Source of the DNA: Sphingomonadales bacterium
GTDB taxonomy: Bacteria > Pseudomonadota > Alphaproteobacteria > Sphingomonadales > Sphingomonadaceae
Assembly: GCA_027483465.1 (NCBI GenBank)
Contig: JAIXUQ010000031.1
Location: 62,001-126,000, forward strand
DNA length: 64,000 bases
Reading direction: 5' to 3'
The translations under genes were made by a program, and so were the position numbers. This document shows positions 32,420 through 34,595 of this stretch, in pieces. A model generated the notes under the pieces. It worked only from the letters and a program-made list of their open reading frames with translations, did not search any database and was not told the origin of the DNA. Each line of letters begins with the position of its first letter. Position 1 is the first letter of the stretch.

Positions 32420-33750
32420 TGGCCGGCACCCGCGAATTCGGCGGCCATCCGGCCGGCCTGGCGATCGTGACGGTGGCCGAGGGCGTGCAGGCCGCCGGCG
32501 TCTATGGCGTGCAGTCGCTGCTCATCCTCTACATGGCCAATGCGCTGTTCACGCCGGCAATGCTGGCTGACGTCGGCGGCTTTGCGGCCTGGCGCGGCCT
32601 GCTCGAAGGGCTGTTCGGGCCGATGAGCCTGCAGGCGCTGAGCACGCAGACGATGGGGCTGTATCTGGGGCTGTTCTTCCTCACCCCGCTGCTCGGCGGC
32701 TGGCTGGGGGACCGGGTCTGGGGCGCGCGGCTCACCTGCATCATCGGGGCGGTGCTGGCCACGGCGGGCATGGTGATGATCATCCTGCCGGCCAGCTTCC
32801 TGCCCGGCCTGCTGGTTTCCGCGCTGGGGGCCGGGGCGCTGCGCTGCAACCTCAACGCCCAGACCGGGCATCTTTATGCCCGCGATGATGGCCGCCGCGA
32901 TGCCGCCTTCTCGATCCTGGCCGCCGGGCTCAACACCGGGGCCTTTCTGGGCCCGCTGCTGATCGGCGCGCTGGGGGAGCGGGTGAACTGGCAATGGGGC
33001 TTTGCCGTGGCCAGCGGCTGCATGGGGCTGGCGGCGCTCACCCTGCTGGCCGCCAATGGCCTGATGCCGCCCGATACGCCGCCGGCGGCGCGGCGCAGTG
33101 CCCGGCTGCACCCCGGCGATGGCCGCACCATTGCGGCGCTGCTGGCGGTGATGCTGCTCACCAGCCTGTTCTGGCTGGCGCAAAGCCAGGTGTGGAATGT
33201 CTATGCGCTGTGGGGCCGCGACCATCTTGACCGGCTGGTGCTGGGCTTCGAGGTGCCCGTCACCTGGCTGCAGGCCTTTGACAGTCTGGCCCCCATCCTG
33301 GCGGTGCCGCCGGTGCTGGCGCTGTGGAAACGCCAGGCCGCGCGCGGGGCGGTGCCGGGCGAACTGGGCAAGATCGGCATCGGCATGGCGCTGATGGGCG
33401 GCGCATTCGTCTGGCTGGCGCTGGGCAGCGGACTGCTGCTGGGCGAGGCGCAAACGCCGATCCTGTGGGCGGCCCTGTTCCACCTCATCCTCAACACCGG
33501 CTGGCTCTATCTGGTGCCCACGGTCAACGCGCTGTTCTCGCGCTGTGCGCCGGTGGCGGTGACCGGGGTGATGCTGGGCGTGGTGCAGCTGGCGGTGTTT
33601 CTGGGCAGCACCGCTTCGGGCTGGCTGGGGCGCTATTATGAAACCATGGCCGGCCCGGCCTTCTGGTTGCTGCACGCCGCCTTTCCGCTGGCCGGGGCGG
33701 CGATCATGTGGGCGGTGCGCGGCCGGCTGGGGGCGGTCCTCAGGCTGTGA
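32416..33750 (+). CDS. POT/PTR-family peptide MFS transporter
   Basis: VTVAEGVQAAGVYGVQSLLILYM..., LTPLLGGWLGDRVWGARLTCIIGA (POT signature-like). Confidence 0.82.
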   Translation: MMAGTREFGGHPAGLAIVTVAEGVQAAGVYGVQSLLILYMANALFTPAMLADVGGFAAWRGLLEGLFGPMSLQALSTQTMGLYLGLFFLTPLLGGWLGDRVWGARLTCIIGAVLATAGMVMIILPASFLPGLLVSALGAGALRCNLNAQTGHLYARDDGRRDAAFSILAAGLNTGAFLGPLLIGALGERVNWQWGFAVASGCMGLAALTLLAANGLMPPDTPPAARRSARLHPGDGRTIAALLAVMLLTSLFWLAQSQVWNVYALWGRDHLDRLVLGFEVPVTWLQAFDSLAPILAVPPVLALWKRQAARGAVPGELGKIGIGMALMGGAFVWLALGSGLLLGEAQTPILWAALFHLILNTGWLYLVPTVNALFSRCAPVAVTGVMLGVVQLAVFLGSTASGWLGRYYETMAGPAFWLLHAAFPLAGAAIMWAVRGRLGAVLRL

Positions 33751-33752
33751 CC

Positions 33753-33786
33753 AACAAAATGGGGGCTGATGTTGCCATCAGCCCCC
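33753..33786 (-). terminator. intrinsic terminator-like hairpin (minus strand)
   Basis: GGGGGCTGATG-GCAA-CATCAGCCCCC followed by ATTTTGTT on the minus strand. Confidence 0.7.
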
Positions 33787-34500
33787 ACTGTGTCGTGCCA
33801 TTCGCTTCGGTCGGCGCCTGCGCTCACAGCTTCGTCAGCTGGAGCTGCGGCGGCTGGCCTTACGCGAGGTCGCGGCACTTGTTCGCATCCGGTGGTGGGA
33901 TGGCCGGTGAAAGCCATCTCGCCACCGTTGCCGGACCATTGCGCTCCGCTCGCCCGCCTGTTTTCCGCTGGCTTCAGGCGCCTTGCCGGGCCTGTTGCCT
34001 TGGGTGGCCTTGCCGTTGCCGGCTGCGTCACCCGTTTCGGTCATCACCGCCCTGGCCTGCGCCGGTGGGGCTGGTGGTGCGATCGGGCCTGGTGGCCCTT
34101 CCGCCGGCTCGCTTGCCCGGATCCGTTTCGCCCGCCGATTCCGGGGCACAGGGCCCAGGCATCCTTGGATTGTTCGCATCCGTCTGGCGCTGCCGCCGGT
34201 TCCGGCGCTGCCCGGTGTCCGTTGCCTGGTGGCAGGTTGCCCTGCCGCTTTGGCGCTGGTCACTGGCGTTTCGCCGCTGGGTTGACGCTCCGTCCCGGTG
34301 GCGATGGCCCGGTTTTCACCGGGCGGTCACCATGCTCCGGGCTGGCCTTCCAACCCCACCAATCTCCGGTTCCGAATTCCCTGCAATTACGCGGGATCAT
34401 CTCCAGTAACTGGCGGTAACCGCTTCATTTCCTTTGGCATTTCTGCCGCCGTCAATTCCCGGCTACAGATGGATGGTCTCACCGTTCGGGTGAGTCGTCA
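33756..34500 (-). ncRNA. candidate long structured non-coding RNA (unassigned)
   Basis: No convincing conserved protein in any frame; purine-rich minus strand with several hairpins closed by GNRA-like loops and a 3'-proximal terminator-like hairpin (33761-33786). The 5' end is not defined. Confidence 0.4.
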
Positions 34501-34524
34501 AAATGAAATATTTGCCATGGGGCC

Positions 34525-34533
34525 TGTGGATAA
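34525..34533. promoter_or_regulatory. perfect DnaA-box-like 9-mer (TGTGGATAA / TTATCCACA) within a 9-bp tandem repeat
   Basis: tgtggataacggggataacggggatgg at 34525-34551. Confidence 0.5.
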
Positions 34534-34595
34534 CGGGGATAACGGGGATGGAATCGCCCGCCCCGCCCCGATCAGGCCGAATCCCGGGCCAAGGC

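Follow-up and report, generated by a model that had tools for sequence, protein, structure and literature searches.

In a Sandarakinorhabdus-type bacterium, does the sequence that separates two metabolic genes encode an RNA, a protein, or only the remains of a gene? We addressed this question in a 64,000-nucleotide stretch of the genome (the window). An initial annotation of this window had proposed that the locus is a large structured RNA rather than a degraded gene. That proposal held up well, because the locus has homologues, covarying stems, GNRA loops on one strand, indels that are not triplets, and no match in Rfam. We conclude that the minus strand from ~34466 to 33753 is probably the gene for a large, stand-alone, structured noncoding RNA (ncRNA). 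Large structured ncRNAs are uncommon in bacteria, and the majority of the known ones have no assigned function.

The predicted features of the locus are collected in Table 1. The start of the ncRNA was placed from the position of the −10 element, and its end was placed from the terminator. The initial annotation had pointed out a final hairpin with a GCAA loop and a U-rich tail (33753-33786), and this coincides with the predicted intrinsic terminator and its 14-bp stem. An ACA near the end of the 3′ domain, adjoining the terminator, pairs with a UGU at the 5′ end of the RNA and so closes the RNA. The end of the terminator and the stop codon of a convergent POT transporter gene are 3 nt apart (window positions 33750-33753), which means that the two transcripts would meet tail to tail.

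Table 1. Predicted features of the ncRNA locus (window coordinates)
Feature	Positions	Strand	Details
Predicted DnaA-box-like array	34523..34550	minus	CATCCCCG (34550-34543), TTATCCCCG (34542-34534), TTATCCACAGG (34533-34523)
Predicted promoter	34473..34501	minus	−35 TTGACG (34501-34496), 17-nt spacer, −10 GACCAT (34478-34473)
CGACTC	34492..34497	minus	GANTC (putative CcrM) site; with the next base, the reverse complement TGAGTCG fits YGAKTCG
Putative ncRNA	33753..34466	minus	~714 nt; 5′ end predicted to within a few nt of 34466, 3′ end set by the terminator
Predicted 5′ domain	34416..34466	minus	GUAGCC (34466-34461) pairs with GGUUAC (34421-34416), enclosing a GGCA-GAAA-UGCC hairpin (34447-34436)
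Variable middle region	33891..34415	minus	Hairpin rich, including 34324-34307 and 34246-34231
Conserved 3′ domain	33788..33890	minus	GATGCGAAcaAGTGCCGCGA ... GGCACGACACAG; GUGCC pairs with GGCAC
Predicted intrinsic terminator	33753..33789	minus	AGTGGGGGCTGATG-GCAA-CATCAGCCCCCATT plus T-rich tail; 14-bp stem

In Sandarakinorhabdus, the neighbors of the RNA are genes for 3-hydroxybutyrate dehydrogenase and acetyl-CoA acetyltransferase; a UvrD-type helicase gene is the neighbor at ~15 loci, and other genes are found elsewhere. Because the neighbors differ between clades, the gene is independent and probably acts in trans. We also considered that the locus might belong to the upstream 3-hydroxybutyrate dehydrogenase gene, as its 3′ untranslated region or the tail of its operon. 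This reading is disfavored by the locus having its own promoter module and by the other neighbors that it has in other clades.

Folding and strand of the element

The minus strand of the segment from 33750 to 34500 had a minimum free energy of −368.3 kcal/mol, compared with −317.5 ± 4.9 kcal/mol in dinucleotide shuffles (z, −10.4). The plus strand gave the same z of −10.4. Folding energy by itself therefore gives no indication of the strand, and we discarded it as strand evidence. The element has 5.6 hairpins with GNRA loops (stem of at least 4, with at least 3 GC pairs) per kb, all on the minus strand, compared with 0.2 per kb on either strand in the rest of the window, a difference of ~25-fold. 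Among 83 family members, the RNA strand carried 215 such hairpins and its complement carried 5, compared with 14.4 in shuffles. Confinement of these loops to one strand confirms the minus strand as the RNA strand, which the initial annotation had deduced from loop type.

Every hairpin named in that annotation, as well as its pair of 12-mers, was found where it had been placed. However, not all of the readings survived. GNRA hairpins do recur, as claimed, but some of the hairpins named are not of this type (one has an ACCA loop, and another has a 2-nt loop that is wider in the consensus). CTCACC-CGAAC-GGTGAG (34494-34478), offered as part of the RNA, belongs to the promoter, where it falls between the −35 and −10 elements, and is outside the RNA. 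The minus strand was called purine rich, and it is indeed rich in A, but it is better described as A rich and T poor (A, 24%; T, 10%). Lastly, both copies of the 12-nt repeat GGATGCGAACAA are present, but the copy at 34181 is not conserved and the copy at 33890 overlaps the conserved GATGCGAAAGTGCC block. Alignment of relatives ruled out the direct repeat as a conserved feature.

Homologues and covariation

When 200 related genomes were searched by DNA similarity, almost every sampled member of the genus proved to have the element, which was recognized mostly by the ~150 nt at its start and the ~100 nt at its end. We examined 22 loci from the genus and two neighboring genera, and the conserved 5′ block, the conserved 3′ block, and the terminator were present in all 22, with the ends 365 to 766 nt apart. 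The length of the element ranges from ~350 to ~840 nt among relatives, and the middle region differs strongly in length. Homologous regions, for which the initial annotation had suggested a search, therefore exist both in the host genus and in other genera.

We extended the analysis with covariance models, using strict filters, so that the counts are lower bounds. Of 399 genomes of the family, 74 matched a model of the 5′ end, and these represent 18 genera of the Sphingomonadaceae; in a first order-wide sample, the model matched 45 of 299 genomes. Across the class it matched 2 of 289 genomes, which were the host genome and one other with a 46-nt match. A second, more diverse model matched 79 of 339 genomes of the order and gave weaker matches in further genera. 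Most of these weaker matches show the box, CGACTC, an A-rich body, and a terminator, and their GNRA excess is modest (11 versus 2); their membership is less certain. Two of these loci, L256 and L259, were rejected as members when reading showed that they are not this RNA. Finally, a scan of 84,980 species genomes returned 87 stretches. Going by record titles, all of those named to genus or order were sphingomonads (Sandarakinorhabdus, Polymorphobacter, Glacieibacterium, Sphingomonas, Sphingosinicella, Sphingomicrobium, and Hephaestia among them), and the remainder were metagenome-assembled genomes named only to class or phylum. Judged by these matches, the RNA family appears to span much of the Sphingomonadaceae, including many culturable Sphingomonas-type species, and it is absent from Rfam. 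Genomes of one genus, g21 (L102, which is G269:C2; G315:C57; and G352), had a second match to the promoter model. It was ~440 bp away in G269 and G315, which suggests a tandem duplication.

Covariation was assessed with our own simplified implementation of the R-scape idea, and with 12 to 18 sequences few pairs are individually significant. A kept double change was seen in 42 of 113 consensus pairs (12 full-length relatives). In the phylogeny-aware test, also of 12 sequences, 6 of the 113 pairs were significant at an E value of <0.05, with a mean pair score of 2.14 compared with 0.04 for the null. An independent cluster of 18 members had 5 significant pairs of 80 and a mean score of 2.84, compared with 0.10 for the null. 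Covariation at the stems, which the initial annotation had named as the evidence to look for, was thus above the phylogeny-aware null in two independent clades. In the stem of the 5′ domain, 96% of cells were paired over 20 sequences. The loop-closing pair of the GAAA hairpin was never broken in 20 sequences, even though its identity changed (AU, 10; GC, 7; UA, 2; CG, 1). A terminator-like hairpin with compensatory changes is present in most members, and the helices of the middle region were poorly alignable.

The promoter module

The most conserved part of the locus is its predicted promoter, a module that was overlooked in the initial annotation. Its order is an extended box array (TATCCNCGTTATCCACAGG), ~25 nt, CGACTC, and then a −10-like element. 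The −35 and −10 elements were assigned from conservation and spacing in the alignment; a scan with the strict sigma-70 consensus did not list this promoter. The core of the DnaA-box-like array was invariant in 20 aligned members. CGACTC was at a fixed offset from the box here and in 21 of 21 homologues found by DNA similarity. The 84,980-genome scan required CGACTC, and therefore only the DNA-similarity set is unbiased for this feature.

CGACTC adjoins the −35 element and contains a GANTC site. On the other strand, CGACTC(R) reads YGAGTCG, which matches YGAKTCG. PMC7987155 (citing Haakonsen et al. 2015) gives YGAKTCG as the motif found in methylated promoters that GcrA activates. The host genome encodes GcrA. 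It also encodes a RAMA-domain methylase, which from its domain would be of the CcrM type.

With up to one mismatch allowed, the array is the only match to ATCCNCGTTATCCACAGG in the host genome. Relatives have a few other near-exact extended boxes, upstream of genes that we take, from their translated starts, to be PPSR (DUF299), hemE (in one genome), dnaB, and fumarase. A published sphingomonad oriC is near hemE (PMC4741004). Therefore, oriC is the most likely identity of the PPSR and hemE sites, and the box itself is most likely a DnaA box. This means that the predicted ncRNA promoter has oriC-like candidate DnaA boxes close to it, since the same extended box occurs at the oriC-type sites of relatives. 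Located upstream of PPSR/DUF299, loci L200 to L204, L207, L209, and L210 are oriC-type regions with GTCCCCGTTATCCACAGG-like boxes. CGAGTCG was 14 to 15 nt from the box in 6 of 8 oriC-type sites, and the other 2 had variants. L208, L205, and L206 also have extended DnaA-like boxes, in front of apparent dnaB and class I fumarase genes, and these might represent a small DnaA regulon. In another family of the order, L259 (G136:C1, ~510878) has a DnaA box and CGACTC directly upstream of a uvrC-like gene, without the ncRNA.

We ruled out the locus as oriC itself by its distance from the origin in two genomes. In G021, 513 kb separate the ncRNA from the oriC-type site that precedes PPSR on the same contig, and in G061, where sampling was sparse, it is ~740 kb from a sign change in GC skew at the contig start. 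A location within the replication origin, as for CcnA (see below), does not apply in either genome.

The promoter shares its extended DnaA box, and often also its GANTC motif, with the replication origin. This is a strong regulatory clue, and it suggests that the ncRNA is probably switched on by the cell cycle machinery. It also makes the function testable, unlike that of most orphan large RNAs. In the mechanism that we propose, DnaA would bind the predicted oriC-like box array upstream of the −35 element, and GcrA, together with sigma-70 RNA polymerase, would act at the CcrM-methylated GANTC between −35 and −10. The identity and spacing of the motifs point to this action of DnaA and GcrA. This would couple transcription to the initiation of replication and to how the site is methylated once the fork has passed. 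The transcript would then fold, its 5′ and 3′ ends pairing just before the terminator, and its many GNRA hairpins might favor tertiary packing.

Alternative explanations, function, and known systems

A protein-coding gene or pseudogene in a long frame, such as the 233-amino-acid frame on the plus strand at 33708-34409, is barely credible. Long open frames do exist, but those on the opposite strand follow from the T-poverty of the RNA strand (10% T). Furthermore, in comparison with three relatives, 28 of 31 indels were not multiples of 3, and the mismatch rate was flat across codon phases. No frame was open throughout the relatives, and the frame with the fewest stops shifted between species. 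Thus, the conserved protein in one frame that the initial annotation had named as counterevidence did not appear. It is also very unlikely that the locus is a diverged housekeeping RNA (RNase P, tmRNA, or 6S) or a known large class missed by Rfam. The size range and GNRA content would fit, but the housekeeping RNAs are accounted for elsewhere in the genome: RNase P (251 bits) is on C107 and alpha tmRNA (220 bits) is on C71, whereas the ncRNA locus is on C117. A 6S-like RNA at G000:C45:8436-8593 (L260) scored a subthreshold 34 bits, compared with the Rfam gathering score of 46. With all three elsewhere, we rejected the locus as the genome's copy of a housekeeping RNA. The Rfam 15 covariance models gave no match at gathering score in the window or at 20 homologous loci; the known-family match that the initial annotation had listed as counting against novelty was thus not found. 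A relaxed search gave only subthreshold matches of up to 13.9 bits. The lack of a match to any Rfam family extends to GOLLD, ROOL, and OLE, whose models are presumed to be in the library. In the open-license PMC literature, we found no published sphingomonad RNA of a like kind. Large structured bacterial ncRNAs and cell cycle ncRNAs are known as kinds, but we found no known family with such a structure or such a promoter module.

If the locus does encode an ncRNA, then how the RNA acts must be weighed as well. Our best guess is a cell-cycle-phased, trans-acting scaffold or sponge that binds protein, rather than an antisense RNA. Conservation of the structure, with no conserved antisense seed apparent among the enriched k-mers, suggests that the RNA probably acts through protein contacts. 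A trans antisense regulator like CcnA or EcpR1, whose unpaired segments would base pair with dnaA, gcrA, or ctrA mRNAs at their ribosome-binding sites, would suit the cell-cycle-type promoter and has alphaproteobacterial precedents in those two RNAs (PMC8959179 and PMC4414408). However, we consider it unlikely, because the k-mers most enriched in the family are tetraloops with their closing pairs (CGGAAACG, CCGCAAGG, GCGCAAGC, and CUUCGG) and not an unpaired seed, and because 350 to 840 nt is long for such RNAs. Much more doubtful is the idea that the DnaA-box array is the main functional element, as a datA-like titration site or a timing element, with the RNA as a by-product. No part of the locus is more conserved than the array, which matches the oriC box, but strand-specific GNRA loops and covariation would not persist in a by-product. 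Also, there are only two or three boxes, and their spacing from the promoter is fixed. A sponge for CsrA was ruled out separately: ANGGA occurred 282 times, compared with 260 in shuffles, which is no excess in a count made irrespective of whether GGA is in a loop. Returning to the protein-binding scaffold or sponge, we tentatively suggest that it might be an ancestral sphingomonad cell cycle RNA, made once per replication round under joint control by DnaA and CcrM/GcrA and acting in trans to couple initiation to downstream events.

Some features of the locus are reminiscent of known systems. CcnA of Caulobacter crescentus (PMC8959179) is also an alphaproteobacterial ncRNA with a promoter read by cell cycle master regulators, as is predicted here. 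However, CcnA is inside the replication origin, is described as CtrA regulated, and pairs with the ctrA and gcrA mRNAs (PMC8959179), whereas the sphingomonad RNA is away from the origin (513 kb in G021), is 350 to 840 nt long and highly structured, and has DnaA-box and GANTC signals. EcpR1 of Sinorhizobium meliloti (PMC4414408) is another alphaproteobacterial ncRNA linked to cell cycle control, but it differs in being a small, stress-induced RNA that acts by base pairing and is conserved in Rhizobiales, and no sequence relation to it was noticed. A set of predicted cell-cycle-regulated ncRNAs in Caulobacter had its promoters scanned for DnaA, CcrM, CtrA, and GcrA sites. These are single-species predictions, among which we found no description of a large structured family with a fixed combined DnaA-box/GANTC module (PMC5988900). 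GOLLD, ROOL, and OLE, large ornate RNAs of bacteria (PMC12286853), resemble the sphingomonad RNA in being structured and standing alone and in having no clear function. The sphingomonad RNA differs from them in having no Rfam match, strong length variation, an occurrence in sphingomonads only, and a cell-cycle-type promoter.
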